From NCBI RefSeq assembly GCF_025717065.2, contig NZ_JAOVZO020000001.1:1-64000 (forward strand): DNA of 64,000 nt, read 5' to 3'. This DNA comes from Tahibacter soli (GTDB lineage Bacteria > Pseudomonadota > Gammaproteobacteria > Xanthomonadales > Rhodanobacteraceae). Of the stretch, positions 26,993 through 58,181 are shown piece after piece; position 1 is the stretch's first letter; every line of letters begins with the position of its first letter. Both the position numbers and the translations under genes were made by a program. The notes below the pieces were generated by a model, which had not been told where the DNA came from, did not search any database, and saw only the letters and a program-made list of their open reading frames with translations.

Positions 26993-27066
26993 TGGGAGAT
27001 CGTCTAACGGTAGGACAACGGACTCTGACTCCGTTTATCTAGGTTCGAATCCTAGTCTCCCAGCCA
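26993..27066 (+). tRNA. tRNA-Gln (anticodon CTG)
   Basis: A 74-base cloverleaf including an encoded CCA. The acceptor stem TGGGAGA pairs with TCTCCCA; the anticodon stem ACGGA/TCCGT encloses CTCTGAC with anticodon CTG (codon CAG); the T-arm is CTAGGTTCGAATCCTAG. Its 3' end is the attachment site of the mobile element that follows. Confidence 0.97.
27049..27066 (+). other. attL: 3' end of tRNA-Gln
   Basis: ATCCTAGTCTCCCAGCCA is repeated exactly at 57322-57339, flanking 30.3 kb of foreign DNA whose first gene is a tyrosine integrase. The tRNA is left intact, as in most integrations at tRNA 3' ends. Confidence 0.9.
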
Positions 27067-27150: not shown

Positions 27151-28623
27151 ATGCGCCTCGCTCACCATCTCATCCGCGTCCCCAGCGGCGTCTACTACTT
27201 CCGCCAGTGGATCCCACTGGATTTGCAGCCCGTCATGGGCCGGCGGTTCGTCCAAACCAGCCTGCGGACCCGAGACACGCGCGCGGCCAAGGTCTACGCC
27301 CAGACGCTGTCGCTGCGCTACGCTCAAGTCTTCGCGGAGCTGAGGGGGACTGCGATGCCAAAGCCGCCCCGAGTGGACGACATCGTGGCTGGAGCCCAGC
27401 AAGGTGCGTTGCGCCCGTACGAGATGGACGTGGACCCCACCACGCTTATCCCCACCCGAATCCGCACCGACGGCACGCCGCAGGACAACCAGGCCGTGCT
27501 CGACGCATTGCAGGCGCTTGGAAACCTTCGGGTCGTGCTGGCGCAGCCGTTGCCCGACTTGCCCTCAGTATTGCCAGCGGCGGCGAGCAAGCCGGCGTCC
27601 GGCCTGACGCTCGCCGGCGCGATCAAGCTCTACGAAGAAGCCGAAGCCGCCACCCTGAAGCCCAACACCTGGTCGCAGAGGAAGCGCGCTTTCGAATCGC
27701 TGAAGGCGGTCATCGGTGGCACAACGCCCGTCGCCCACATCACGCGCGAAAAAGCTGGCGATTGGGCGCACGGGTTGATGACCCAGCCGTCCAGCAAGCT
27801 CAAAGACGCGCCGATGACCAAGCGATCGGCCGGCAACGCGGTGTCCCACGCCGCCCAGCTCTTCGTCTTCCTGGCCCAACGTGGCAAGTGGGCGGGGCCG
27901 AACCCGGTCAAGGGCGTGGTCGTCATGACCAAGAAGGAGAAAGCTCGGCGGAAGGCCGATGGCTTCCAGTGGGAAGCCCTGGACGTCCCGGCGCTCAAGC
28001 GCGCCTTCGACCCTTCCAACCTCGCCGGCATCCGCACCCTGCACACGAAGTGGGCGGCGTGCATTGGCCTGTTCACCGGCGCGCGGGTCGGTGAAGTTGC
28101 ACAGCTCTACCTCTCAGACTTCGTCGAGGAAGACGGTATCCCCTGCATCCGAATTGCCACGGATTCCGATGGCCAGTCGCTCAAGACCGAAGCGTCGCGG
28201 CGCCTCGTTCCCATCCATCCGGCACTGGTCGAACTAGGCCTGCTGGAGCGCGTGAAGGAACTGCGCCAGCGGGGTGAGGAGCGCCTGTTCCACGACATGC
28301 GCATCGATGGGCGCGCGGGAGCCGGAAACGCCATTTCGAAAGGCTTTGGCTACTACCTCGACAAGCTCGGCATCAAACCGCGCCGGGCCAACGGCATCGT
28401 CGGTTTCCATAGCTTAAGGAAGACGGTGATCCAGGAGTTGCAAGGCAGCCGGCTGCCTGCCGAACGGCGGCGGGCGTTCGTGGGGCACGAGCCGGGGGAC
28501 GATGTGCACGAGTCGGTCTACATGCGGCCGTGGACCGCGGCCGAACTCGCAGAGTTGTTCCCTGGGTTGGGCTGGGGGAACTGGTTGGAATTCGACCGTC
28601 TGAAGACGTTGTTGCGAGGTTGA
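27151..28623 (+). CDS. int: Tyrosine-type site-specific integrase
   Basis: A 490-residue integrase. An N-terminal DUF6538-like arm-binding domain (MRLAHHLIRVPSGVYYFRQW) is followed by a core-binding domain about 150-260 and the catalytic domain. Catalytic residues: Arg in LFTGARVGEVAQL, His-x-x-Arg in GFHSLRKTVIQE, His in FVGHEPGDDVHE and Tyr in SVYMRPW. It recombines the tRNA-Gln site with the element. The ATG lies within the arm-site region, suggesting autoregulation. Confidence 0.95.
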   Translation: MRLAHHLIRVPSGVYYFRQWIPLDLQPVMGRRFVQTSLRTRDTRAAKVYAQTLSLRYAQVFAELRGTAMPKPPRVDDIVAGAQQGALRPYEMDVDPTTLIPTRIRTDGTPQDNQAVLDALQALGNLRVVLAQPLPDLPSVLPAAASKPASGLTLAGAIKLYEEAEAATLKPNTWSQRKRAFESLKAVIGGTTPVAHITREKAGDWAHGLMTQPSSKLKDAPMTKRSAGNAVSHAAQLFVFLAQRGKWAGPNPVKGVVVMTKKEKARRKADGFQWEALDVPALKRAFDPSNLAGIRTLHTKWAACIGLFTGARVGEVAQLYLSDFVEEDGIPCIRIATDSDGQSLKTEASRRLVPIHPALVELGLLERVKELRQRGEERLFHDMRIDGRAGAGNAISKGFGYYLDKLGIKPRRANGIVGFHSLRKTVIQELQGSRLPAERRRAFVGHEPGDDVHESVYMRPWTAAELAELFPGLGWGNWLEFDRLKTLLRG

Positions 28624-32434: not shown

Positions 32435-33550
32435 TTAGAAGCGTTCGGCGAAGGCGTCCACCAACTCGTCCGACGCGCGTTCGCGCTCGCCGAGTGCAAG
32501 GACGGCCTCGACTTGCTGCGCCACGTAGGTCAGGTGGTGGTTCATGTCGAGCCGAACCCACCGGCCGGTACTGCCCGTGTTGTCGCGCCCTTGAGCCACG
32601 GACCAGAAGAAATCGTCGGCGTTGCTGTACCCGGGCTTCTTGTAGACGTCCGATGCCACCAAGCGCCGGACGATATCGGGGTACTGGTCTTTCAGGGAAA
32701 TGTGGTCTTTTCGGCAGCCGCGGAAGTAGTGAATGCTTCCGCCGGCCGTGTACCGAACTTTTCCGTTGGTGTATTTGCTGCGGACGTTGTCCATGTGTTC
32801 CGGGCGGACGATGCCGTAGTCCGAGAACTGCAACCGACGGCCCCAACCGTAAGCGCGGATGAGGCGGGTCCAGATGGAAAACTCATCCCGACGCACAGAC
32901 CCTGTCGTGTGCTCTTCCGCTGCGGCCTCGCTGACGAAATCCACCACGGTGGAACCCGCGAAGATGACGTTGCGGAAGGAAAGACCGTAGCCATCGACGA
33001 GACCCAGAAAGCGCAAGACGGCGATGACCGCCGGGTCTCGCAGGTACCGGAGTTTCGCAAAGTCGATGAGCAGGTCCGCGTCGCGAGCAAGGATTCCGAT
33101 TTGGCCCACACGAGCGGAAAGGTCTTTGATCGCTTTTTCGGGGGCGAGGGCAACGTCCTCTCCGTCCAATCGAAGGCAAATGCCTTGGCGGTGTTTCTCG
33201 GCGGCGCCCACCAGAACGTCCAGCGATGAGGCGTCCGCATGCATCGAAAGAACGGGAATGACGCGTTTTTGCTTGCTGAAAATCGAGTCATAACCCCAAT
33301 CGGCGGGGTGCCTTTCGAAGACAGTTGTTTTTGGCAGAAAACGGTCCAAATCTACGATGGGCGTCGCCCCATCTCCATACAGGTCGAAGGCGCCGAGCGT
33401 CTTGGCCAGATGTTTTTCGGCGTCTCCGTCGTCCGGCATCCGCAGCATTTCGAAGATGGGGGACACCGTCCGGCGCAGCGGGGCCTTCAACAAGTTGAAC
33501 GCCTGCACGTCGTTCTGTTTGAGTTTTGCTATGGGTCGGTACGCGCTCAT
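32435..33550 (-). CDS. Beta-family (sce7725-like) protein
   Basis: A 371-residue protein with the pattern of the 'beta' family: YRPIAKLKQNDVQAFNLL at the N-terminus, TPIVDLDRFLP, CLRLDGEDVALAPEKAI, LIDFAKLRYLRDPAVIAV, and a C-terminal core GGSIHYFRGCRKDHISL. Members are found in defence islands and are of unknown biochemical activity. Third gene of an operon after a HigB-like toxin and a HigA-ImmA fusion, overlapping the latter by ATGA. Confidence 0.65.
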   Translation of the reverse strand: MSAYRPIAKLKQNDVQAFNLLKAPLRRTVSPIFEMLRMPDDGDAEKHLAKTLGAFDLYGDGATPIVDLDRFLPKTTVFERHPADWGYDSIFSKQKRVIPVLSMHADASSLDVLVGAAEKHRQGICLRLDGEDVALAPEKAIKDLSARVGQIGILARDADLLIDFAKLRYLRDPAVIAVLRFLGLVDGYGLSFRNVIFAGSTVVDFVSEAAAEEHTTGSVRRDEFSIWTRLIRAYGWGRRLQFSDYGIVRPEHMDNVRSKYTNGKVRYTAGGSIHYFRGCRKDHISLKDQYPDIVRRLVASDVYKKPGYSNADDFFWSVAQGRDNTGSTGRWVRLDMNHHLTYVAQQVEAVLALGERERASDELVDAFAERF

Positions 33551-34815
33551 GAAAACTTGCCTTTGGCAGCCTCTGGAAACAACGTCCTCACACGTCCTTG
33601 TCCCAACAATTCTCCGAAGCGGTCGTACCGCTTGCTTTCGAAGCGAACTCTTCCCGCAACTATAGCGGGGTGGATGTTAAGGTTTTTGGCGAACGCCAAG
33701 ATTCCGGTTTTCGTGGGATTGCTGGAAACACTGCTCGCCCGCCAGTAGGCCCGGGGAATCAAGGTGTCCCGGGCAATCAGGTCCGCTTCGCTTTCAACGG
33801 GGTCGTGGCCGTCTTCGTCGTCGGTTCGGTCGATGAAGGCTTCTTCCGATTCACTCAAATGGTGCTCGACGTGGGCCAATTCGTGGAAAAGCGTGAACCA
33901 GAAACTGTCGACGCGATCAAAACGCAGCGTCAATCCAATTACGGGGTGCCCGGCCTTGGACAGTAAGGCCGCACCGTCCACCAGTGTGCCAGGCAGGCCC
34001 GGCTCGACCAGCAGAACAATGCCGAGGTCCTTCAAAAATCCTTGCGCCAACCACGGGCCGTTGTCCTTCGTACTCAGTTCCGCCAAGTTTCGGAGCGCGG
34101 ACGCGCTCAGCGCAGTCCGGTCGAAGGCCGGATAGGTCCGTTCCAGCGTTTTGGCCCGGATGAGCAAGCGGCTCGTCCACGCAATCAGCGAATACCGGGA
34201 CGCACCCGTCGAACCGGGGCCGCGGAATGTGCGGCGGAACAGGGCGGGATGCAGGTTCGATTTTTCGCCCACCTGTTCTAAGAATTTCCGAACCAGGGTT
34301 TGCGGGTTGTCTTGGTCTGCAGAGGCGATGCCCTCAAACCAGCCGCGGCGCCGCATTTCGGAAACCGGAAATTCATTCCATTCGAACTGGTCGTCCGCTT
34401 CCGTCTTCTCATCCGCGGACGTACGTTCCCGCATCGGCGCAACGAGGGATTGCAGAGGGATGTGGAGGGCTTCGTGCAGCGCCCGAATCATGTCCAGGGT
34501 CAGGGAACGCTTTCGGGCGAGAATCTCAGAAGCCCGATTTTTCCCGCCCAGGTACGGAGCCAAGTCTTTTTGCCGAAGGCGTTGCTCCGACATTCGGTAT
34601 TCGATGGCGTCCACCGGGTCGGTGGGTTCGAACTTGAACGTCCGCGATTCGTACTCCCGGACCAGAACCGTCAGCAACTCCAACCGGTCCACTTCCGGGC
34701 TCTCCGGAGAGGGGTCAAGAACAATCAGGCTTTCCAGTTCGTTCAACGCCCCCTCATATTGCTCATTGGTCTTGAGCACTTTCAGCGGGAGCGTGGAGGT
34801 GTGGCGACCGAGCAC
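33547..34815 (-). CDS. HigA-like HTH / ImmA-IrrE metallopeptidase fusion
   Basis: 422 residues. Residues about 15-125 follow the HigA antitoxin pattern (DRLELLTVLVREYESRTF, DPVDAIEYRMSEQRLRQKDL, GGKNRASEILARKRSLTLDM). Residues about 270-390 hold an ImmA/IrrE domain with zinc motif FTLFHELAHVEHHL and a downstream EAD segment (VESEADLIARDTLIP). Such fusions cleave a repressor on signal. Starts GTG, 2 bases after the toxin stop. In an operon with a HigB-like toxin and a beta-family protein. Confidence 0.8.
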   Translation of the reverse strand: MLGRHTSTLPLKVLKTNEQYEGALNELESLIVLDPSPESPEVDRLELLTVLVREYESRTFKFEPTDPVDAIEYRMSEQRLRQKDLAPYLGGKNRASEILARKRSLTLDMIRALHEALHIPLQSLVAPMRERTSADEKTEADDQFEWNEFPVSEMRRRGWFEGIASADQDNPQTLVRKFLEQVGEKSNLHPALFRRTFRGPGSTGASRYSLIAWTSRLLIRAKTLERTYPAFDRTALSASALRNLAELSTKDNGPWLAQGFLKDLGIVLLVEPGLPGTLVDGAALLSKAGHPVIGLTLRFDRVDSFWFTLFHELAHVEHHLSESEEAFIDRTDDEDGHDPVESEADLIARDTLIPRAYWRASSVSSNPTKTGILAFAKNLNIHPAIVAGRVRFESKRYDRFGELLGQGRVRTLFPEAAKGKFS

Positions 34816-36861: not shown

Positions 36862-37452
36862 AAGCGGTCGGCGACTTTTGGTCCTCCCACCTCCGTTCTC
36901 ACAAGAATGTGTGATGTCCATCACGTTTTGAGAAGTGCGTGAAGGCCGCATCGATGCCGTAACAAGCCCGTTATCCCTACTTCATCGGAAGAAAACGGAT
37001 TCCAAGCAAGGCCTTACCGTCGGCGTGAGGGACCGCTGATCATTCCAACCCCTTGATTCGGTGGGGGTCTTGACGGGTCGCGGCGGTCCACTAGGGTGGG
37101 GAACGCAATTTCGGAACGGGAGTGGGGGCGTCGCCGCCGGCGACGCGCGCCGCTGTCTCCGTTTCCCAAATCCCGAACCCCAGCCGCGCGAAGGCGCAGG
37201 AGGACCACCCATGACTTAGCCCCGACAACTGGTTTCGCTGTTTTTACGGCGGCCAGAAAGGACAACGCCCCGAAACGACTTCGCAGGTCGCCGGGGCGTC
37301 TGGCAGAGGTGAGACCCGTCTGCTGTGCCCCGCACATTACTTCCTTTCAAAGCCGAGTCAAGCTGCCCGCACCGGGCAGACGGATTCGTGCGGCCCGCCG
37401 TTTTCCTCCCCGCCCAGGGGCTTGCCCCTGGGTTCATTCGAGAGAAAACGCC
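36862..37452. other. Intergenic region with left end of the IS21-family element
   Basis: 591 bases without a gene. Visible structures: GTGATG-TC-CATCAC (36911-36924) and, near the end, a 9-base stem at 37413-37432. The IS left terminus must lie here, but I could not match it to a right terminus. Confidence 0.4.
37413..37432 (+). promoter_or_regulatory. Hairpin in the istA leader
   Basis: CCCAGGGGC, loop TT, GCCCCTGGG, 20 bases before the istA start. It may dampen readthrough transcription or translation of the transposase. Confidence 0.4.
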
Positions 37453-39006
37453 ATGAACAAACTGCCCGACCTCATCCGCTTGCTCTTCACCAGGCCGCGC
37501 CTCACCCACCGCGCCATCGCTGCGTCCTTGCAGAAGTCCCGCCGCACCGTGGACCGCTACCACCGCGAGATCCGCCTGCGGGGCTACCGCTGGGAGCAAT
37601 TGAAAGGCCTCACCGCGAAGCAGCTCCACAGCAAGTTCAACCGGCAGTGGGCGATCTCCAAAGTCCGCCCCGATTTCCCGGCCATCGACGCGGTGCTGCA
37701 GAAGCGCGGCATGACGTTGTACGCGGTGTGGTCCGACTACCGCTCCCGCCATAAATCCAAAGCCCTCGGCTACGCCCAGTACGCCGCGCTGTACCGCGGG
37801 CACCGAAAAACGCAGGGCCTCGCGATGCGGCGAGTCCACGTGCCGGGACAGGAAGTCTTGGTGGACTTCTCCGGCAAGCGGCCGTTCTACACCGACCGCG
37901 GGACCGGTCGGGAGGTGCCCGTCGAGCTGTTCGTGGCGGTGCTCGGCGCGAGCAACTACGTCTTCGCTACCTGCGTGCCCTCGCAGTCGGTGCCGGACTG
38001 GATCGACGCGCACACGCGCATGGCCGAGTTCTTCGGGGGGATGCCCGCGTGCGTCGTGCCCGACAACCTCCGGTCGGCCGTGTCGAAAAGCGGCCGAGAG
38101 CCCGTGCTGCAGCGGACGTACGAGGATTGGTGCCGGTTCTACCACACCGCGCCTTTGCCCGCCCGGGCAGGACGGCCGCGCGACAAAGGGGCGGTGGAGG
38201 GCGCGGTGCTGCTCGTGCAGCGAGCCATGCTGCCGACGCTGGACAGGCAGACCTTCTTCTCCCTGGACGACCTCAACGCCGAAGTGGCGAGGTTGCTGCA
38301 CGAACTGAACGAGCGGCCCTTCCAAAAGCGCCCGGGTTGCCGCCGCGAACTCTTCGAGCGCATCGAGAAGACTGCGCTGCAACCGCTGCCGCCAACGCGG
38401 TTCACCTACGGGCAATGGATGGCCCGCCAGGTGGTACCGAAGGACTACCACGTCGCCGTGCTCGGCCACCACTACTCCGTCCCGCACGAACTGGTGGGGA
38501 GGCGAGTTGAGGCCCGCGTGTCGCCGGCTACCGTGGAAATCCACTGCGAGGGCGAGTGCGTCGCCGAGCACGCGCGCTCCCAGGTGCGCGGCGGGGCCAC
38601 CACGCTGCCGGCGCACCAACCTGAGGCCCACCGGGCCGAAGCGGAGCGTACGCCCGAGGGTTTGCTGGCGTGGGCGGCCGAAGTCGGACCGAACCTGAAA
38701 CGGTACATGGAGTACCAGTTCAGCCGTCCAAACAAGTTCGAAGGGCTGCCAGCAGGCACGGTCATCCGCGACCTCGCAAAGCACTACACGGCGGAACAAC
38801 TGGAGGCGGGCGCCAAGCACGCCCTGGCGCTGCACCTGCGCTCCGCCACGGACCTCCGCCACCAGTTGAAAGCCCTCAACGAATCGCCCGCGGCGCCGGC
38901 AGGCACGCACCCGAAGCGGGGCGGCAAGCGGCGGAAGCACGCGGAGCCGATGGCGTTGCCGGCCAAGGGGCGGCGTTCGGTCCGCGGCGACGGGGGTGCG
39001 GCTTGA
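37453..39006 (+). CDS. istA: IS21-family transposase IstA
   Basis: 517 residues. HTH near the N-terminus (LTHRAIAASLQKSRRTVDRY), then the DDE catalytic core: Asp in EVLVDFSGKRPFYTDRG, Asp in CVVPDNLRSAVS and Glu in RDKGAVEGAVLLVQRAML. The C-terminal part (YHVAVLGHHYSVPHELVGRR) is standard for IstA. Overlaps the istB start. The gene extends in frame upstream but the leader hairpin and ribosome site fix the start. Confidence 0.9.
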   Translation: MNKLPDLIRLLFTRPRLTHRAIAASLQKSRRTVDRYHREIRLRGYRWEQLKGLTAKQLHSKFNRQWAISKVRPDFPAIDAVLQKRGMTLYAVWSDYRSRHKSKALGYAQYAALYRGHRKTQGLAMRRVHVPGQEVLVDFSGKRPFYTDRGTGREVPVELFVAVLGASNYVFATCVPSQSVPDWIDAHTRMAEFFGGMPACVVPDNLRSAVSKSGREPVLQRTYEDWCRFYHTAPLPARAGRPRDKGAVEGAVLLVQRAMLPTLDRQTFFSLDDLNAEVARLLHELNERPFQKRPGCRRELFERIEKTALQPLPPTRFTYGQWMARQVVPKDYHVAVLGHHYSVPHELVGRRVEARVSPATVEIHCEGECVAEHARSQVRGGATTLPAHQPEAHRAEAERTPEGLLAWAAEVGPNLKRYMEYQFSRPNKFEGLPAGTVIRDLAKHYTAEQLEAGAKHALALHLRSATDLRHQLKALNESPAAPAGTHPKRGGKRRKHAEPMALPAKGRRSVRGDGGAA

Positions 39007-40885: not shown

Positions 40886-41476
40886 TTAAGAGCGTCGGTG
40901 ATGTCGAGTCCGCACTAAATACGGCATGCGCTGATGATGCGAGCTATTTGCGCTCCATCTTAGAGCGCTGTAGCCACCCACGAGACGATGCCCCACCCAT
41001 CTTGTATCCACAACCTGGGGAAGGTTCGGCATGTTCAAAAGCAGCAGTCTCCCCATAAAAGCAATCCAATCACCTTTGCCGAGTAGCGTAGTGCTGTATG
41101 CATGAAAACTTCGACCGCTGTTGAACAAAGTAAGCTCGTTAGCAATTTCTCTGCCGACAATTTCATTGAAAGCAATAGAGTCGGTATCGGGATGATCGGC
41201 TGAAAAAAAGTCAATCATCGGTATGTGTGATATCCGGTTGCGAGGGTCGATGATTTTTGAGTTCAGCGCGAGCTCCCAGCCCGGCTTGAGACTACGGATT
41301 TTTTCGGCCACCCAATCTGGAGTTATCTCGACGATGGGAACGAAATATGTTGTTCTTTCATCAAGTGCGGCCTGAGGTCGATAGAAATATTCGGAGAAAC
41401 TCAACTTGAGTTCCAGACCATATCTGTCGGCCAAGTCATAGGCCACCTGTACGGGGTGCGCCGACAAGTCGATCAC
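40886..41476 (-). CDS. Archaeo-eukaryotic-primase-like protein paired with dGTPase
   Basis: 196 residues, overlapping the dGTPase stop by ATGA. The C-terminal half has SFHAYSTTLLGKGDWIAFMG, RLLLLNMPN and DTRWVGHRLVGGYSALRWS, resembling short primase/polymerase-like (AEP, 'primase 1D-like') proteins with the basic R-W...H-R...L-R-W pattern; the N-terminal half has VPIVEITPDWVAEKI. Assignment is tentative. The fixed link with a dNTP hydrolase suggests a two-gene anti-phage unit. Confidence 0.55.
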   Translation of the reverse strand: MIDLSAHPVQVAYDLADRYGLELKLSFSEYFYRPQAALDERTTYFVPIVEITPDWVAEKIRSLKPGWELALNSKIIDPRNRISHIPMIDFFSADHPDTDSIAFNEIVGREIANELTLFNSGRSFHAYSTTLLGKGDWIAFMGRLLLLNMPNLPQVVDTRWVGHRLVGGYSALRWSANSSHHQRMPYLVRTRHHRRS

Positions 41477-42882
41477 AGGCTTATGCCGGCCAGGGTTTGA
41501 TACGTGCGAAGGGCAAAGATGTCCGTCATGCCTGCAACAAAGTCCACGATTAGGTGAACGCGCAATGCATGCTCTTGTTCGTCGTCAACGTCTTCGGTTG
41601 CTTTCCTGTAGGCCGCAACGTGCTTGCCAGCCAGCAGTGAGAACAGCCGCATTTCCTCTTCAAGATTCTTGCTGCATCGTCCTCCACCGGAAATTGAGCC
41701 CATATTGTCTCGGTCTAATTTCAAGACGCATTCGAACTTGCTCAAGATTCCTTTGATCGCCGCATGACCAACGAGCTCCCTTTCGTGGGAACTTCGCTTT
41801 CCGTACAGCAAATGGCCGACTGATTTCTTGATGGCGCTGAGGATGTTGCCAGAATCAGAGCCCCGTTCCACCAAGCCCTTGTGGGTACCGGCCAAAACCT
41901 GGTCATGTTGCTGCACATATACGCTTGCGGCGTTTTGAACCAGAAAGCGGACGAGTTCCGACCTGAATACGACGGCCGCCTCAACGGTCTTGCCATATTT
42001 CGCGGAATTGTCTGTGGCTGTCTTTACGATTGATTGTGCGGAAGGATGCTTATCCAATCGAGAGACAAGGTCTGATGTGAAGAGCTCGTGGGTCAGTAGG
42101 CCTTTTTCGATGCCATCTTCAATGTCGCTTAGGCAATAAGAAATATCATCAGCTGCTTCCATCAAGTACGCCAACGGAAAGCGGGAGCCGTCCGACATTT
42201 GCAGCTCTTGTTTTACACACTCCCAAACCGCTGCCTCTGTTGTAAATATTCCAGCTTTTTTTGTCAGTGGCGATGCGTCGCTAATGCCAGATGGCGTGCA
42301 GGGGTATTTGACGGTGCTCGCGATTTGAGAAACGGTCAGATTCATTCCGGTTGATCCGTCGGCTCCGGCGAGTTTTGTTATCACTCGAAAGCCCTGCGGG
42401 TTTCCGTCGAAACTCTTGATGTTCTGGCTGTGTGCCTCTGAAGTCGCCCTGTATTCCGAGGCGCGACGAACATAGTCGGTGTACCAATTTGAGATGGCCG
42501 CTTCGCCGAAATGACCAAAAGGCGGATTGCCTATGTCATGTAGGAGGCATGCCGTCTCAACGATGTTCGTCATCGCGAGCTTGGAGTCGTCGGTTAAACC
42601 GAGGCTTTCCGCCTTGTCGCGTCCAAACTGAGAAAAAACGGAAGTGGTGAGGTATCTGCCAACGTGAGCAACTTCGAGGGAATGAGTGAGGCGCGACCTG
42701 ACTGCTGCATTTTCTTCGAGGGGGAATACTTGGGTTTTTCGCTGTAAGCGACGGAAAGCGGCTGAGTAAATGACCCTCGACCGGTCGCTTTCGGTTTCTT
42801 TCAACAGCTCTTCTTCCGGCCGCGTGCTGGGCCTCAACCGCTTCCGCGAAAGTAGTTTTTCATACGGTTTTGTCATGGCCAT
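41473..42882 (-). CDS. dgt: dGTPase-family HD-domain triphosphohydrolase
   Basis: 469 residues. HD-domain metal ligands: RLTHSLEVAHVGRYL (His), VETACLLHDIGNPPFGHFGE (HD) and YLMEAADDISYCLSDIEDGI (Asp). The start matches Dgt proteins (ETESDRSRVIYSAAFRRLQR KTQVF order). It hydrolyses dNTPs to nucleosides and triphosphate; on mobile elements such enzymes can starve phage replication. GC is lower than the chromosome. First gene of a two-gene operon. Confidence 0.88.
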   Translation of the reverse strand: MAMTKPYEKLLSRKRLRPSTRPEEELLKETESDRSRVIYSAAFRRLQRKTQVFPLEENAAVRSRLTHSLEVAHVGRYLTTSVFSQFGRDKAESLGLTDDSKLAMTNIVETACLLHDIGNPPFGHFGEAAISNWYTDYVRRASEYRATSEAHSQNIKSFDGNPQGFRVITKLAGADGSTGMNLTVSQIASTVKYPCTPSGISDASPLTKKAGIFTTEAAVWECVKQELQMSDGSRFPLAYLMEAADDISYCLSDIEDGIEKGLLTHELFTSDLVSRLDKHPSAQSIVKTATDNSAKYGKTVEAAVVFRSELVRFLVQNAASVYVQQHDQVLAGTHKGLVERGSDSGNILSAIKKSVGHLLYGKRSSHERELVGHAAIKGILSKFECVLKLDRDNMGSISGGGRCSKNLEEEMRLFSLLAGKHVAAYRKATEDVDDEQEHALRVHLIVDFVAGMTDIFALRTYQTLAGISL

Positions 42883-46393: not shown

Positions 46394-48181
46394 ATGCGGC
46401 TCGCCTTTCTTCTGTTTTTAGCCTGGCTGCTGGCAATCCCTGCGTCGGCCGCCGAACGAAGCCGTTCGTTCGTCTACAACGCCCGCAACCAGCTGACCGA
46501 CGTCGTGGACGCCAGCGACCCGTCGCGGTCCATCAGCTTCACCTACGACGCCAACGGCAACCGCGAAACCAAAACGCAGGGGGGTACCACCACGACCTAC
46601 CGGTGGGACGCACGGGACCGCTTGGTTGAGGTTCTGCGCGACGGCGTGTGGGTCGCCCGATACGACTACAACGCCGGCGGGCAGCGCACCTTCAAAGAGG
46701 TCAACGGTCCGAGCCCGATGGCCGTCCGCTACGTGTACGACGGCCCGCTCCTGATCGCGGAAACCAACGTGATCGGGAACACCCTGGCCAAGTATCACTA
46801 CTCGGCAAGCGGCCGGCTGCTGTCGATGGAGCGCGCCGGCCAGCACTACTTCTACCTGCTGGATGGCTTGGGCACCCCCATCGCCATGACGAGCGCCGAA
46901 GGCCTCATCGTCGTCCGCTACCGGGTCGATGCCTGGGGCAACCCCGTCGCCACGGTGGGCGATTCCGCCAACATCTTCGGCTTCACGGGCTACCCCGTCG
47001 ATGACGAAACCGGGCTGCACTACGCCAATGCGCGGTACTACGACAGCGAACTCGGCGCCTTCCTCAGCGAGGACCCGGCGCAGGGCGACCCCACGCGCCC
47101 CGTAACGCTGCACCCCTACCTCTACGGCAACGGCAACCCGCTGATCTACCTCGACCGCAGCGGGCGCACGGCCGAGTTGGTCGAAGTCCTCGACGGCCAC
47201 GAGCGCAACCAGGCCGACATCGTCGCCCTTGCCGAACAAATAAAAGGGATGCGCGCCAGCGCCACTTGGTACGAGCGGCCGGTGGTGGAGGTCGGGATGC
47301 TGGGCACCGTCCTGCTGACGGCCGGCAACCGCCTGGGGGAAGGCGTGGTTACCATGGCGAACGCCGGCGCCAACGTGGTGCTGAACGCGGCGGACACCTA
47401 CATCGTGGACTTGGGCGAGGGCGCTGACCCGGCGAACGCCGAAGTCGCCGCGTTCGCCGAGGACGGCTTTGCGGCGGCCGAAGCTGCCTACCACGACCCG
47501 CGGGCCGCCGCGTATGGCGCGATGGCCGCGGCCGCCGAGCCGTACGAGAAGGCCTACGACGGCGACACGGGCGCCCAACTCGACCTGGCGGCCAGCCTCG
47601 ACCCCCGCAGCCTCAGCAAACGGGTATTGCGCGGGATGGCGCCCGCGCGCGGACCGCCTCACGTCGGCGGTTCGCAGGCGCACTACATCACCGAGGGCGC
47701 CGGCGGACGCCCGGAACTCACCGCCTCGCCCGGCGGCCCGTCCGTCAGCCTGGAGGAGGCCCTGGCGCCCCCGGGAAGCCAGTTCGGCGGCAGCCGGCAA
47801 AACTCGACCCCATACACGGGCGGCCCGCACAGCAGCACGAAGCTGCCGCCGGGCGACGGCCTCGACTCCCACCACATGCCGGCGAAGGCCATCAGCGGTC
47901 TGGGCGTGGACCCCGGTCCGGCCATCAAGATGGACCCGGCCGACCACCACGAAACCACGAGCAACGGCCGCCAAGGGTTGCGGGGCGAACGCTACCGGAT
48001 GGGGCTCAAGGCGATGATCGACCAGGGCCGGATGCGCGACGCCATGGCGATGGAGGTGCGCGACGTGCGCCGCGCCGCCCAGGTTGTTTCCAACAACATG
48101 AAAAAGTATAACCAGGCCATGCAGGAAATGCTGGACTACGCCAAAGGCAAGGGCTGGCTGGACAAGGGGAAAAAGGAATGA
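46394..48181 (+). CDS. Short RHS/YD-repeat protein with C-terminal nuclease-like toxin domain
   Basis: 595 residues. A Sec signal peptide (MRLAFLLFLAWLLAIPASAA), YD repeats about 25-215 (SFTYDANGNRETKTQGGTTT), the RHS core end FGFTGYPVDDETGLHYANAR, YYDSELGAFLSEDPAQGDP, PYLYGNGNPLIYLDRSGR (to about 257), and a variable tail. The last 110 residues contain GLDSHHMPAKAISGL and MDPADHHETTSNGRQGLRG, a His-rich HNH-like nuclease pattern. The RHS shell is far shorter than usual. An immunity gene follows with ATGA overlap. Confidence 0.78.
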   Translation: MRLAFLLFLAWLLAIPASAAERSRSFVYNARNQLTDVVDASDPSRSISFTYDANGNRETKTQGGTTTTYRWDARDRLVEVLRDGVWVARYDYNAGGQRTFKEVNGPSPMAVRYVYDGPLLIAETNVIGNTLAKYHYSASGRLLSMERAGQHYFYLLDGLGTPIAMTSAEGLIVVRYRVDAWGNPVATVGDSANIFGFTGYPVDDETGLHYANARYYDSELGAFLSEDPAQGDPTRPVTLHPYLYGNGNPLIYLDRSGRTAELVEVLDGHERNQADIVALAEQIKGMRASATWYERPVVEVGMLGTVLLTAGNRLGEGVVTMANAGANVVLNAADTYIVDLGEGADPANAEVAAFAEDGFAAAEAAYHDPRAAAYGAMAAAAEPYEKAYDGDTGAQLDLAASLDPRSLSKRVLRGMAPARGPPHVGGSQAHYITEGAGGRPELTASPGGPSVSLEEALAPPGSQFGGSRQNSTPYTGGPHSSTKLPPGDGLDSHHMPAKAISGLGVDPGPAIKMDPADHHETTSNGRQGLRGERYRMGLKAMIDQGRMRDAMAMEVRDVRRAAQVVSNNMKKYNQAMQEMLDYAKGKGWLDKGKKE

Positions 48182-48621: not shown

Positions 48622-48754
48622 ATGCCCTCAGGCTCGCCTCTACTACCTCTCGACTGGGGCCCGCCTGTGAGAGTTCGGCGTACGTCGCGACAGTCAAAGG
48701 GTGCGAAAGCGCCTACGTGAAAGCGGACCGCGCCCGACCACCATGGGGAGTGGA

Positions 48755-50803
48755 ATGCGCATCGAAAGAGTGGAAGTCAAGAATTTCCGCCTGCTCAAGC
48801 AGGCAGCTGTTCTGCTCGAAGAGCAAACCACCGTCGTGGTGGGCCGAAACAACAGCGGCAAGACCTCGCTGACGGAGCTATTCCGGCGTCTGCTGAAAGA
48901 CACCACACCGCAGTTCCGCCTGGAAGACTTCGCGCTCCCCGTGCATGCGGATTTCTGGACCGCCGCCCAAAAGCTGTCCGATGGGGAAAAATTGGACGAC
49001 GTCCGGAAAACGCTGCCGTGCATCGAGGTGCGGATGACGTTCCGGTATTCAGCCGCCGAAGAACTCGGGCCGCTGACCCCGTTCGTGGTCGATTTGGACG
49101 AAGCCTGTTCCGAGGCGCTGGTGGTCGTCCGGTTTGAGCCGCGCGACGGCACCCTGACCGACCTCCTCGCGAAGGAGGGGGCGACGGACGCTCCGATTGA
49201 GGTCCAGCAGGACCGATTCTACCGAGCGCTCCAAGACCGCATCGGCAAATCGTATGGTTGCTCCGTACACGCCGAAGACCCGAACGACCCCACGAACCGA
49301 AAGGAACTCGACCTGGGTCATCTGCGGGCCATCGTTCGGGGAGACATCATCACCGCGCAGCGCGGGTTGGACGACATCACTGCCCGGGACCGGGACGTGC
49401 TGGGAAAGATTCTGCAAGACCTCTTCGACTCAGCCTCTGCGGACGGAGCAGACAAGGCCGGTAAGGACCTCATCGACGGGCTGACGAAAGCGGTCGATGG
49501 CATCCAGGAAACCCTTCGATCCCAGGTGAAGACCCACCTGCAGGGACTGCTGCCGCACTTTGAGGTGTTCAACTACCCGGGGTTTCACAACCCCAACCTC
49601 ACGACGGAGACGGGCTTCGACGTGGCGCGGTTGCTTCAGAACCACACGAAGGTCCGCTACCCGGGTGCGCATGGCCTGACGTTGCCAGAAACCTACAACG
49701 GTCTCGGTGCGCGGAACCTCATCTACATCCTGCTGCACCTCTACAGCTTCTTCAAGCAATTCCAGGTGGCGCCGGCCGCTCCGGCCGTCCACCTCGTCTT
49801 CATTGAGGAACCGGAAGCGCACCTGCACCCACAAATGCAGGAAGTGTTCGTTCGGCAACTCGGGGTCATCGCGAAGAAGTTCGCGGAACTCAACGGCGGC
49901 GGGCCCTGGCCGGTGCAGTTTCTCATCTCCACGCATTCGTCCCACATCGCAAACTCTGCCCCCATCAACGCGCTACGGTATTTCTTAGCTGGTGCGGAGG
50001 CTCCCGCATCTCCCTGGCGGGCGGCGCGGATCAAAGACCTGCGTGCAGGCCTCTCGGGCAAGGCCGCCGACGACCTGAAATTCCTTCAGCAGTATCTGAC
50101 GCTCACCCGCTGCGATCTGTTTTTTGCCGACAAGGCCATCCTCATCGAGGGCACCTGCGAGCGGCTGTTGCTGCCCGTCATGATGCGGTTGGTCGATGCC
50201 GAAGACGCGACCGCCCCGCAATTGGCCAGCCAATACTTCACGGTCCTGGAAGTGGGCGGGGCCTACGCGCACCTTTTCGACGACTTGCTTGCGTTTCTCG
50301 AACTGCCGGCGCTCGTCATCACCGACATCGATGCCGTTGATGGCAACGGGGAGGCTTGCCCTGTCGCTGGCGGTGAGAAATCGAGCAACGCCTGCATCAA
50401 GGCATGGTTTGACGGAAAGTCTTCGAAACCAAGCGACTTGGTTGCGTACGCGGAAGCTGATCGCGTGAAAGGCATCAAGCGCCTCGCTTACCAGATTCCG
50501 GAAGGCGACGGCGAGCCGTGCGCCCGGAGTTTGGAAGACGCCGTGATGCTCGCCAACAAAACCGCGTACGGCCTTCAGAACGTGCCAGTGGCAGACCTCG
50601 GCCAGCGGGCCGCGGATCTCGCCAAAAAGCAAAAGAAAACGGAGTTCGCCCTGAAGTTGGCGCTGGGTGGCCCAAAGTGGAACGTGCCGCGGTACATCGC
50701 TGAAGGCCTGCGCTGGCTGGCCCGAACGAATGCACCCGAATCGCCTGCACCGCCGGCAGCTGCAGCCGCCGCGATGCCGGCAGCAGCGGGAGCAGGGGCG
50801 TGA
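48755..50803 (+). CDS. gajA: OLD-family ATP-dependent nuclease, GajA-like
   Basis: 682 residues. ABC-type ATPase: Walker A TVVVGRNNSGKTSLTELF, Walker B HLVFIEEPEAHLHPQMQEV and FLISTHSSHIANSAP; C-terminal TOPRIM with ILIEGTCERLLLPVMMR (Glu) and ALVITDIDAVDGNG (D-x-D). This architecture next to a UvrD-like helicase defines Gabija / class 2 OLD. It is about 100 residues longer than B. cereus GajA. Start at 48755 (MRIERVEVKNFRLL) has GGGGAGTGG upstream. Confidence 0.85.
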   Translation: MRIERVEVKNFRLLKQAAVLLEEQTTVVVGRNNSGKTSLTELFRRLLKDTTPQFRLEDFALPVHADFWTAAQKLSDGEKLDDVRKTLPCIEVRMTFRYSAAEELGPLTPFVVDLDEACSEALVVVRFEPRDGTLTDLLAKEGATDAPIEVQQDRFYRALQDRIGKSYGCSVHAEDPNDPTNRKELDLGHLRAIVRGDIITAQRGLDDITARDRDVLGKILQDLFDSASADGADKAGKDLIDGLTKAVDGIQETLRSQVKTHLQGLLPHFEVFNYPGFHNPNLTTETGFDVARLLQNHTKVRYPGAHGLTLPETYNGLGARNLIYILLHLYSFFKQFQVAPAAPAVHLVFIEEPEAHLHPQMQEVFVRQLGVIAKKFAELNGGGPWPVQFLISTHSSHIANSAPINALRYFLAGAEAPASPWRAARIKDLRAGLSGKAADDLKFLQQYLTLTRCDLFFADKAILIEGTCERLLLPVMMRLVDAEDATAPQLASQYFTVLEVGGAYAHLFDDLLAFLELPALVITDIDAVDGNGEACPVAGGEKSSNACIKAWFDGKSSKPSDLVAYAEADRVKGIKRLAYQIPEGDGEPCARSLEDAVMLANKTAYGLQNVPVADLGQRAADLAKKQKKTEFALKLALGGPKWNVPRYIAEGLRWLARTNAPESPAPPAAAAAAMPAAAGAGA

Positions 50804-52599
50804 ACCAGCCGGCCCCTCTTAATCCCGCGAAAGCAGAGGCCGAAAAAGCCATGGCACAACTGTTCGAGTGCATCCGCACCGGGCAGAGCTTTGTGTTCGA
50901 GGCCGGCGCGGGCGCCGGTAAAACCTATTCGCTCATCGAAGCATTGGAACGGTTGCTGGCCGAGCGCGGGCGCTCTCTGGTCCGCCAACACCAGCAGATT
51001 GCCTGCATCACGTTCACCAACGTGGCGAAGAACGAAATCGACACGCGCACGGACCGCCACCCCGCGGTGTACTCGGACACCATCCACGGCTTCTGCTGGT
51101 CGCTTCTGAAAGACCAACAGGGCGAATTACGCCGGCTGATTCCCGAGTTGAAGAAGTGGCCGGAGCGCCTGGCGGAAGCCGGCGAAATCGGAACCCGGCA
51201 AATCAATTACGAACTTGGCTTTCCGCGTGTCGAAGACGACGTCCTCTCCTTGAGCCACGACGACGTGCTCGACCTGATGACTGCATGCTTGAGCAAGCCC
51301 AAGTTCCGACGCATGATGACGGCCCGCTACCCCATCCTGTTCATCGACGAGTACCAGGACACCGACGCGGACTTTGTGAATGCGTTGATGACCCACTTCC
51401 TGGGCCAGCCGGGGGCGCCGCTCATCGGGCTATTCGGTGATGGCTGGCAGAAAATTTACGGCGACGGATGCGGCACGGTTTCTTACGAGGGCCTGGCATC
51501 CATTGGCAAGGGCGCCAATTTCCGCTCGGTCCCCGCCGTGGTGAGCGTCCTCAACAAGATGCGGCCCGAACTTCCCCAGGCAGTGGAAGACGAAGACGCC
51601 CCCGGCAGCGCCGTCGTCTACCACACGAACGGGTGGACCGGGGCGCGGCGAACGGAGGCCCATTGGAAGGGCGATGTCAGCCCGGACGCGGCCAAGGCCT
51701 ACATGGACCGCGTCAAAGCGCTTCTAACCGAAGACGGGTGGCGCTTCGAATCCGGTGAGACCAAGGTACTGATGCTCACGCACAACTTGCTGGCCCAGGA
51801 GCAGGGATACGCCGGGATCGCAGCGGTCTTTGCGGGACGCACGGACGCCTTCGTGAAAAAAGAAGACGCCCACATCGCGTTCCTGGTGGACGTCGTGGAA
51901 CCCGCGTGCGCTGCCTTCGCCGCCAAACGCTACGGTGAAATGGTCGCAATATTGGGCGGGGCGATGCCCCGGATCACCAGTCCCCAGCGGAAGGCGGCTA
52001 TCCGCGCTTCCATGGAGCGCCTTGTGGCGTTGCGGACAGCCGGCACCATCGGTGAGGTCATCGACTACCTCCGTGCCGAGGATGGCTTTCATCTGCCGGA
52101 GAAAGTCGAAGGGAAGGAAACGGGCTTGCTGCTTGATGCAGCAAAGAATGCGGATGGCACGGCTCTACCCGAAACCGGGACCGCCGAAGAGAACGAGGGC
52201 GGCGAGCAACAGGCCGCGGCCTGGATGGAACGGCTTCGGCAGCTGCGGCAGGTTCCTTATGCCGAGGTCGTGGTGCTCGAACGGTTCATCAACGGTATGA
52301 CGCCCTTTGCAACCAAGCACGGCGTTAAGGGAGCGCAATTCAACAACGTTTTGGTGGTCGTCGGCCGAGGCTGGAATCAGTACAACTTTGACCAGATGCT
52401 GGCCTGGGTGAGTAAGGGGGTTCCCAAGGGTAAGGCCGAGACCTTTGAGCGAAGCCGCAATCTGTTTTACGTGGCTTGCTCTCGGCCGCGGAAAAGACTC
52501 GCGGTGCTGTTCACTCAGGAGGTTTCTCCGCCCGCGATGGAAACACTGAAATCGTGGTTTGGTGCGGGCAGCGTGCATGAGATGACCGACGTAGGCTGA
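50800..52599 (+). CDS. gajB: UvrD-like helicase, GajB-like
   Basis: 599 residues of helicase superfamily 1. Motif I FEAGAGAGKTYSLIEALE, motif II PILFIDEYQDTDADFV, motif III-like LFGDGWQKIYG, and motifs V-VI ATKHGVKGAQFNNVLVV and NLFYVACSRPRKRLAVLF. The GTG start overlaps the gajA stop (GTGA), so the two are coupled. In Gabija, nucleotide loss or DNA ends activate the GajA nuclease via GajB. Confidence 0.85.
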   Translation: MNQPAPLNPAKAEAEKAMAQLFECIRTGQSFVFEAGAGAGKTYSLIEALERLLAERGRSLVRQHQQIACITFTNVAKNEIDTRTDRHPAVYSDTIHGFCWSLLKDQQGELRRLIPELKKWPERLAEAGEIGTRQINYELGFPRVEDDVLSLSHDDVLDLMTACLSKPKFRRMMTARYPILFIDEYQDTDADFVNALMTHFLGQPGAPLIGLFGDGWQKIYGDGCGTVSYEGLASIGKGANFRSVPAVVSVLNKMRPELPQAVEDEDAPGSAVVYHTNGWTGARRTEAHWKGDVSPDAAKAYMDRVKALLTEDGWRFESGETKVLMLTHNLLAQEQGYAGIAAVFAGRTDAFVKKEDAHIAFLVDVVEPACAAFAAKRYGEMVAILGGAMPRITSPQRKAAIRASMERLVALRTAGTIGEVIDYLRAEDGFHLPEKVEGKETGLLLDAAKNADGTALPETGTAEENEGGEQQAAAWMERLRQLRQVPYAEVVVLERFINGMTPFATKHGVKGAQFNNVLVVVGRGWNQYNFDQMLAWVSKGVPKGKAETFERSRNLFYVACSRPRKRLAVLFTQEVSPPAMETLKSWFGAGSVHEMTDVG

Positions 52600-56774: not shown

Positions 56775-57164
56775 ATGTTTACCGACGCCGATGTGATTCA
56801 CACCTACACCCGCCGCGAGGCCCTGGACGACGGAGTGCTCATGGATGCGGGTTCCGCGGCGAGCGAGGCCGGGTTCAAAGTGCCGGTCGCCTTGACCGCG
56901 AAAGTCTGGGCGACCTGTGTCAGCTGGAGCACGGACGAGAGAACGCCGCAGGACGAATCGGGCCGACTTTGGGATGTCGTCTGGATGGCTTCGCTGGCCG
57001 CCCGAGCGGCAGCCCGCCGGGGCGATTCCGGGCGAGTCGAGTTTCAAGTATTGGTCGTGCCACGAGGCGGTCGCCGCCCTCTTTTAACCCAACTGGCTCT
57101 CCTCATCGGTCAGGGCGATCAGGGCGAATGCGTCGCCACCATCTTGACCCCCGACGAAGACTGA
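56775..57164 (+). CDS. DUF6573-family protein
   Basis: 129 residues. DVIHTYTRREALDDGVLMDA and AGFKVPVALTAKVWATCVSW are the family's N-terminal pattern; these proteins are common on plasmids and integrative elements near tra genes and have no known function. TAAGGAG is 7 bases before the ATG. Last gene before the right end of the element. Confidence 0.75.
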   Translation: MFTDADVIHTYTRREALDDGVLMDAGSAASEAGFKVPVALTAKVWATCVSWSTDERTPQDESGRLWDVVWMASLAARAAARRGDSGRVEFQVLVVPRGGRRPLLTQLALLIGQGDQGECVATILTPDED

Positions 57165-57222
57165 CTGACGCGGGCGAGGAGGGGTACCGGCGGCCACCTC
57201 GCCGCTGGTAGCATCCCGCCCG

Positions 57223-57257
57223 CTCGCACAAAAGCTCGCACAAACGCCTCGCACAAA
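57223..57257 (+). repeat. Candidate integrase arm sites, right end
   Basis: CTCGCACAAA occurs at 57223-57232, 57235-57244 and 57248-57257, 12-13 bases apart, 65 bases inside attR. Matching copies flank the left end with the same spacing. Confidence 0.6.
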
Positions 57258-57321
57258 TGAGGCCGGAAACTGCGACCGCTCAAAGGCTTACGGGTGCAGG
57301 GATTCGGACCAAGTACAACTG

Positions 57322-57339
57322 ATCCTAGTCTCCCAGCCA
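57322..57339 (+). other. attR
   Basis: ATCCTAGTCTCCCAGCCA, identical to the last 18 bases of tRNA-Gln at 27049-27066. It marks the right boundary of the element and the original chromosomal tRNA 3' end. Confidence 0.9.
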
Positions 57340-57381
57340 AAACAAAAAGGGGCGCCCCAAAAGGGCGCCCCTTTTTGTTTT
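57339..57381 (+). terminator. Original tRNA-Gln terminator
   Basis: AAAACAAAAAGGGGCGCCC pairs with GGGCGCCCCTTTTTGTTTT (57363-57381), a 19-base perfect stem. Before integration it directly followed the tRNA-Gln CCA end. Confidence 0.85.
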
Positions 57382-57408
57382 GGCGTGGGGAGACCAGGAT
57401 CGAACCGT

Positions 57409-57973
57409 CAGGTTCGACGAAATCGGCAGGACAGCCGATTTCGAACAGCGGAGCGAAGCGTAGCTGGCCCCGAAGGGGCGGCGCACATGGATGTGCGCCG
57501 TATATCCTGGTCTCCCGAAGCAAGAGCGCCCCTTCCGGGGCGTTCTCGCTTCTAGCGTCAGGTTGCGTCGACGCAGAACGAAGACGAGGCTGGTTCGACG
57601 AGTTCGGCAGGAAAGCCGAAATCGAACGGCGGAGCGAAGCGGAGCCGGCCCCCGAAGGGGGCGGCGCACAGGGATGTGCGCCGTATATCCTAGTCTCCCG
57701 AAGCAAGAGCGCCCCTTCCGGGGCGTTCTTGCTTCTGGCGTCAGGTTGTGTCGATGCCAAACGAAGACGGGGGCAGGTTCGACGATTTCGGCAGGAAAGC
57801 CGAAATCGAATGGCCGAGCGAAGCGTAGCCGGCCCCGAAGGGGCGGAGCACAGGGATGTGCGCCGTATATCTTGGTCACCCAGGAGGCGGAATGCCTCTA
57901 CCGGGGCGTTCCGGCTCCTGCATCAGGTTGAGTCGACGAACGAAGAATGGCAGGTTCGACGATTTCGCCGGGA
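57409..57973 (+). repeat. 183-bp tandem repeats carrying tRNA-Gln 3' ends
   Basis: About three units. The tRNA-like core ATCCTRGTCTCCC occurs at 57504-57516 and 57687-57699 and, degraded, at 57869-57881, so the period is 183 then 182 bases. Each unit also has several stems: TTCGGC/GCCGAA, CCCC-GAA-GGGG, GCGCACA/TGTGCGC, and AAGCAAGAGCGCCCC paired with GGGGCGTTCTTGCTT. Open frames of about 61 codons per unit exist on both strands, without recognisable protein. The plan is that of the E. coli tyrT repeats (178-base units with 19 tRNA bases). Confidence 0.85.
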
Positions 57974-58181
57974 AATGCAGTGCCGCTGCTTTTCGTCAGT
58001 CTTCGTAAAGTCCATCAAGCAGTTGCTCGTCTTCTGAGAAGTGAAGCAGTTCAGGGCTAGTCAGAGCCAGCGGCTTGAGAATCAAATCCTCAACTGTCCG
58101 CGGAAGTGGGGGTCACACCACTTTCGGACGGCGCTAGGGCGTTGCCCCAGACCCCGCCTCTCGGCGCAAACCTGCACAAGG

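Follow-up and report, generated by a model that had tools for sequence, protein, structure and literature searches.

The RNA rtT has so far mostly been viewed as an RNA of E. coli and the Pasteurellaceae, with a loosely defined role. The tyrT repeats of E. coli (rtT, rttR; Rfam RtT, RF00391) stand as tandem units behind a tRNA-Tyr gene, each ending in the tRNA 3' end. In the Pasteurellaceae, the RtT-family RNAs Arrc20 and Arrc21 lie near tRNA-Asn and tRNA-Lys and have Northern blot support, and RtT RNAs have been ascribed a modulating role in the stringent response and in the reaction to amino-acid limitation (PMC4986893). Elements resembling rtT have also been classed among the BIMEs (PMC2965389). 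A second point of comparison is provided by the Csr/Rsm decoy RNAs (CsrB, CsrC, RsmX/Y/Z). The SELEX consensus of CsrA is RUACARGGAUGU, with the GGA in a hairpin loop (PMC7652899, PMC5694010), and a CsrA dimer bridges GGA sites 10–63 nt apart (PMC7652899). According to one report, homologues of CsrB, CsrC and RsmV-Z are absent in relatives of Xanthomonas, and another RsmA-binding RNA, RsmU, is described (PMC7694677). Among the openly licensed papers listed, most subscription papers lying outside the search, nothing was found on binding of CsrA to rtT or on cassettes in tRNA loops.

In the window, the whole 64,000-nt stretch of Tahibacter soli DNA that was analysed, three tandem units of ~183 bp and a fragment of a fourth adjoin the attR of a ~30-kb integrative element, the full units spanning 57,409-57,881. 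The three units of about 183 bases that the sequence-only reading had described were recovered as direct repeats of 108 nt starting at 57409, 57590 and 57774 (spacing 181 and 184) and of 122 nt starting at 57468, 57651 and 57833 (spacing 183 and 182). Its further claim that each unit ends in a copy of the tRNA-Gln 3' end holds exactly for two of the three. Direct-repeat analysis placed the tail copy ATCCTRGTCTCCC, without mismatch, at 57504-57516 (ATCCTGGTCTCCC) and 57687-57699 (ATCCTAGTCTCCC), whereas the third, degenerate copy at 57869-57881 (ATCTTGGTCACCC) departs from the consensus tail at two positions. The source of these tails is the tRNA-Gln(CTG) gene at 26993-27066 (ARAGORN; Rfam tRNA, 64.5 bits), on the plus strand like all parts of the array. 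The 3' end of this tRNA, ATCCTAGTCTCCCAGCCA (27049-27066, +), forms the attL core, and an 18-bp copy of it, again ATCCTAGTCTCCCAGCCA, the attR core (57322-57339, +); the element between tRNA-Gln and array (27067-57321, unstranded) is delimited by these identical cores at both flanks. It sits at the own end of tRNA-Gln, not in any unit tail.

As read from unit 1 of the window and from relatives, a full unit consists of the tRNA tail, a terminator-like hairpin, an inverted tail copy, GGTTCGA, a cassette and a tail copy. In unit 1 the GC-rich terminator-like hairpin lies at 57340-57384 and the inverted copy of the tRNA-Gln tail at 57387-57406. By eye, the complement of the latter is the downstream tail copy (CCTGG) and not that upstream (CCTAG), and no clear inverted copy was seen in units 2 and 3. 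The cassette is ~70-90 nt long and is ordered C-H1-H2-H3-H4-GAGT, with four hairpins, before the tail copy starts at ATCC. Leaving the cassette out restores GGTTCGA-ATCC, so it interrupts the T-loop of the copied tRNA part, with GA^A as the interruption point.

A covariance model, R1, was built from 12 cassettes of the order with the tails left out, and because it includes the T-arm start, a second, tRNA-blind model, R2, was made. RNAalifold gave no pairs on a first mixed alignment, so the structures of both models were set by hand. Cassette 1 (57411-57501), comprising the T-arm start GGTTCGA and four hairpins, scored 96.5 bits with R1, cassette 2 (57592-57684) 86.3 bits and cassette 3 (57776-57866) 86.4 bits, all three being high by construction because these cassettes sit in the model. 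The corresponding R2 scores were 47.6 bits (for 57418-57501), 41.2 bits and 40.3 bits. The fourth-unit fragment, a cassette start, was assigned through direct-repeat family D3 to 57953-57975. A consensus scan found no promoter in 56900-58100, the window compared with Rfam at gathering score gave tRNA as the sole match, and blastn of the array against phage and plasmid records gave none.

Adjoining attL is a probable integrase gene (27151-28623, +), named so from its position; its sole Pfam match is DUF6538. The predicted defence cargo of the element comprises a Gabija pair at 48701-50803 and 50800-52599 (PADLOC; GajA 857 bits, GajB 813 bits) and matches to PD-Lambda-2_B (33547-34815, minus) and a dGTPase (41473-42882, minus). 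Of two other proteins in the element (37096-39006, 46394-48181), one has rve and Mu-transposase C-terminal domains and one an RHS repeat. Because the element cuts the array off from the tRNA promoter, its insertion has probably silenced the array. Two other tRNA-linked cassette sites in T. soli still adjoin their tRNAs, one behind csrA-tRNA-Ser(GCT) and the other at tRNA-Ser(TGA).

Searching 61 genomes with the window units by blastn gave matches in 19. The best (76-77% identity over ~195 nt, best E 4e-26) was to units that follow tRNA-Gln in another member of the order, and the similarity of the window units to those of relatives is, as judged from these alignments, not a matter of chance. 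Long matches were obtained in G050, G036, G015 and G022; the units follow tRNA-Gln(CTG) directly in the first three, and for those of G022 no adjoining tRNA was found. Shorter matches recovered the same layout in G047, G009, G043 and G053, the last two having another tRNA-Gln 3' end, which the unit copies fully in G043 and partly in G053. The arrangement in G015, G036, G047 and G050 bears out the proposal that, without the element, the units would stand directly behind tRNA-Gln.

In several of the other genomes with a match, no unit accompanies tRNA-Gln (five loci: L009, L011, L016, L018, L019). Within the genus, tRNA-Gln is present in 8/8 genomes, but reading ~330 nt behind it and searching the whole genomes with R1 revealed no unit there in 7/7 congeners. 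The comparison with relatives that had been proposed as a refuting check was therefore divided: it went against the first reading within the genus, with no unit found behind tRNA-Gln in the congeners, but not in the wider family and order, where units are present there. Since no units were found at tRNA-Gln of the congeners and of several relatives, the array is patchy. In four of the seven congeners (L238, L239, L240, L244) an integrase-like gene similar to the one in the window stands directly behind tRNA-Gln, and on these genes, read by eye, tRNA-Gln is an integration hotspot in the genus. The three other congeners have neither unit nor integrase gene there; one of them (G005) carries a second partial tRNA-Gln copy ~1.5 kb on.

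The closest relationship is with the tyrT repeats. R1 recovered 4/4 E. coli tyrT (rtT) units (E 0.002-0.013), in which the inverted tail copy, GGTTCGA, the CCCGAAGGG hairpin and GAGTAATCC before the tail are shared, and the order of parts in E. coli K-12 tyrT is that of the window units. As lower bounds, given the limited candidates scored per genome, R1 matched in at least 131/250 genomes of the order, and Rfam RtT in at least 50/274 genomes, 18 of them over its gathering cut-off of 45 bits. Matches of the two models coincide in place and strand in at least 14 contigs, twice over the Rfam cut-off (G468:C61, G449:C131), and R1 matches (E<0.01) were found in 26 of 30 loci fetched with RtT. The comparison with tyrT drawn in the sequence-only reading is thus more than an analogy: these matches argue strongly that the units of this order are related to the E. 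coli repeats and share common descent with rtT. On this evidence rtT is one branch of a family matched in at least 140/369 genomes of the class (again a lower bound) and sited in loops of tRNA and tmRNA copies.

Differences from the E. coli repeats are also apparent. The host there is tRNA-Tyr, compared with tRNA-Gln and many other RNAs here; GGA loops in hairpins 1 and 4 are a feature of the window cassettes; and the window array is parted from its tRNA by an element, so that its likeness to the tandem layout behind a tRNA holds only once the element is discounted. Rfam RtT gave no match in the window and none in the own genome at E<=1e-3, and relatives' units behind tRNA-Gln (L002, L010) scored 26.7-29.5 bits, below 45. 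Missing the RF00391 cut-off, the window array is classed as a relative of RtT, not as a member. Arrc20 and Arrc21 resemble the window units by description, as RtT-family RNAs near tRNAs; the available text of their report describes no link to CsrA (PMC4986893). REP and BIME sequences are likewise short palindromic intergenic repeats, and by eye one cassette lies in a REP-like palindrome (L045). In contrast to these, the cassettes are often tied to tRNA copies with matching tails and have four ordered, covarying hairpins.

In alignment A6 (109 distinct rows), both partners have changed in 22 of 23 pairs. The covariation score was 0.409, compared with 0.132 for shuffled alignments (0/500 shuffles) and 0.04-0.11 when the structure was slid, in an alignment that was fitted to the model and so favours the structure. 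These compensatory changes show a conserved four-hairpin structure, in agreement with the earlier suggestion of an RNA family. At the outer pair of hairpin 3, GU/UG was found at 37 and AC/CA at 5 of 191 sites, an excess that points to an RNA of the tRNA strand. Counts over all helix cells had opposite signs in two alignments, with GU 105 vs AC 46 in A4 and 80 vs 98 in A6, where the register is poorer and shifts between cassette types add mismatches.

Association with tRNA-Gln is not a rule, and units also follow Ser, Arg, Tyr and Glu tRNAs and tmRNA. Of the 121 unique R1 cassettes (93 loci), 87 are preceded at a distance below 800 nt by a tRNA or tmRNA on the same strand (Gln 26, Ser 26, Arg 12, Tyr 9, Glu 8, tmRNA 5 and Asp 1, the tail of the single Asp case not matching). 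The local tail is copied at 14/14 bases in 38 of 67 first units and at 12/14 or more in 48; a match of 12 is attained in 4.6% of comparisons with the tails of other tRNA kinds, and the own tail matches better than that of every other kind in 50 of the 67. How the cassette acquires copies of the end of whichever tRNA is its neighbour is a testable question. Four loci have tmRNA-linked units (L042, L052, L074, L104), with the tmRNA tail copied fully in L104 and partly in L042 and L074; no clear copy was seen in L052.

With the tRNA-blind model, matches were found in at least 98/229 genomes. Contexts were read for 103 unique R2 matches at 70 loci (the 30 top loci and 40 further stretches among the matches listed): the T-loop was recognised on both sides in 41 and on the 5' side only in 6, the D-loop in 1, other tRNA-derived sequence in 3 and other contexts in 52. 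By eye, insertions were identified in the D-loop at five loci (L127, L128, L131, L093, L219) and in the anticodon loop at two (L028, L194). In T. soli, two tRNA-Ser(TGA) bodies with a T-loop cassette lie upstream of the intact gene (L114, L115), and in a congener (L236) a unit lies downstream of tRNA-Ser(TGA). The RNA sX4 (RF02223) was rejected as the identity of the cassette, its matches covering tRNA-Ser genes, not cassettes.

The window array contains six GGA hairpin loops, at 57429-57431 and 57489-57491 in cassette 1, 57610-57612 and 57672-57674 in cassette 2, and 57794-57796 and 57854-57856 in cassette 3. The loops of hairpin 1 read AGGACA or AGGAAA. In hairpin 4 the sequence is ACATGGATGT in one cassette and ACAGGGATGT in two. 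Across 218 cassettes, hairpin 4 has GGA in 181, of which 139 read CA(N)GGA(T/C)G, counts that are biased upward because R1 and R2 were built from GGA cassettes and most of the 218 were found with these GGA-trained models. The distance between the two GGAs in 99 cassettes is 26-92 nt (median 50), and 98 of the 99 fall within 10-63 nt. In 31 cassettes found with RtT, and hence not selected for GGA, it occurs in both hairpins in 7, in neither in 16, in hairpin 1 only in 7 and in hairpin 4 only in 1. The two tend to co-occur (Fisher p 0.011, n=31, shared ancestry ignored); automatic hairpin calls are rough and give 14 and 8, or 11 and 9 with RNAfold loops, for hairpins 1 and 4 of the 31. GGA is therefore not needed family-wide, as the E. 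coli tyrT units and 16 of these 31 cassettes lack it in both hairpins. Many non-GGA cassettes have GNA triloops, as in hairpin 4 of E. coli. GGA in a middle loop was seen in 5/145 of the R1-found set and 10/46 of the RtT-found set, the latter largely GNA-type triloops.

All 40 tested genomes with cassettes have csrA, which is present once in T. soli. An R1 match (E<0.01) was found downstream of csrA in 18 of the 40, T. soli included, within a neighbourhood of up to ~2.7 kb (four of the 40 stretches being shortened by contig ends). In the T. soli neighbourhood the cassette follows tRNA-Ser(GCT). Since this preferred host tRNA was found downstream of csrA in 36/40, the proximity of cassette and csrA may only reflect that tRNA. 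Rfam CsrB was over its cut-off in 0/229 genomes and RsmY in 1/229, which left no usable contrast with cassette presence; the own genome gave no match to either, and the window none to models of decoy families. RsmY matches on two cassettes (24 bits) were dismissed as chance level, as sub-cut-off matches to RsmY also occur in unrelated control genomes. In having several GGA hairpin loops near the CsrA consensus, at a dimer-bridging spacing and in a host that encodes csrA, the window array resembles the Csr/Rsm decoys. It differs from them in its tie to tRNA genes and in its repeated four-hairpin cassette with two GGA loops each.

With a probability of about 0.5, the units are rtT relatives that serve as a tRNA-coupled RsmA/CsrA decoy RNA. 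The decoy function is a prediction in which the GGA loops are candidate RsmA/CsrA sites. Each unit copies part of the neighbouring tRNA and carries the four-hairpin cassette in its T-loop. Units would be transcribed from the tRNA promoter by readthrough, which the terminator-like hairpin between the tRNA and the first cassette makes necessary, and tRNA processing may free the unit RNAs. An RsmA/CsrA dimer would then be bound by the GGA loops of hairpins 1 and 4, and tandem units could sequester RsmA as a decoy coupled to tRNA transcription.

It is possible, though not probable, that the cassette is instead a selfish, non-autonomous hairpin element spreading into the loops of duplicated tRNAs and into other repeats, its structure serving its own copying with no gain to the host. 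The range of settings fits such an element: besides T-, D- and anticodon loops of tRNA copies, the cassette occupies a REP-like palindrome, a MITE-like repeat and an apparent coding sequence. So do the patchy distribution, with none found at tRNA-Gln of the 7 congeners, and the 51-56 nt of one cassette that two further genera of the family share at 93-96% identity. The 52 of 103 R2 matches in other contexts fit a spreading repeat as well. Nevertheless, GGA and its CA...TG context are kept while the stems vary, no mobility protein was found, and a search for an exact empty site of a dispersed cassette gave none; the G-U excess in hairpin 3 also points to selection as an RNA of the tRNA strand, although the result over all cells is mixed. 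An rtT-like RNA with some other host role, in 3' processing of tRNA operons, in termination or in modulation of the stringent response and not through RsmA/CsrA, appears improbable. It would accord with the description of RtT RNAs as stringent-response modulators (PMC4986893), with the existence of a non-GGA cassette class and with the terminator-like hairpin ahead of cassette 1, but it leaves unexplained why hairpins 1 and 4 have GGA closed by CA...TG pairs and why this is rare in the middle loops of the R1-found set.

The sequence-only reading had also offered decoy attachment sites, that is, spare sites diverting integrases from the tRNA. The tail copies do repeat the att core (13/18 bp in the window, the whole tail in several relatives), and tRNA-Gln is a hotspot with an integrase-like gene behind it in some congeners. 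Beyond the copied tail, nothing was found in favour of this role: the conserved part is the cassette, which covaries whereas the tail does not, the window element used the tRNA's own end and not a unit tail, and insertions were likewise seen in D-loops, in anticodon loops and away from tRNA sequence. An integrase-decoy role is accordingly unlikely, and spare attachment sites are the least probable account of the array.

A broader form of the decoy reading extends it to the class. The cassette would insert at GA^A in T-, D- and anticodon loops of duplicated tRNA or tmRNA sequence, gain the ends of local tRNAs and act as a tRNA-coupled RsmA/CsrA decoy in many lineages; this generalization is tentative and lies on the doubtful side of possible. 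If the decoy reading is true, a class of Csr-sequestering RNAs would be tied to tRNA synthesis, including in relatives of Xanthomonas without a known CsrB-type RNA, and integrative elements would switch the decoy off by severing an array from its tRNA. Should the GGA class bind RsmA/CsrA, tRNA transcription would be linked to a global regulator, and its members would be decoy candidates for the relatives of Xanthomonas.

Several cassettes and hairpins were seen in other settings. In a congener (L235, ~1500-1581) a cassette lies, by eye, in an apparent coding sequence; this is the cassette behind the 51-56-nt matches. One genome (G386) has seven dispersed loci (L184, L200-L204, L207) at which a nearly identical cassette stands in the middle of a ~300-350-bp repeat; among four of the seven rows viewed, three have terminal inverted repeats CTAGCCCGGATATTGCACCAAGG, and L184 is without the left one. 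Dispersed hairpins with GGA loops, with no tRNA found nearby, were noted at L007, L008 and L017, those at L007 and L008 adjoining, by eye, repeats of the kind CTTTCTTTG...CAAAGAAAG. Finally, three genomes (L029, L031, L049) preserve, again as read by eye, a lone 3' portion of a tRNA-Lys-like sequence whose T-loop holds a cassette.
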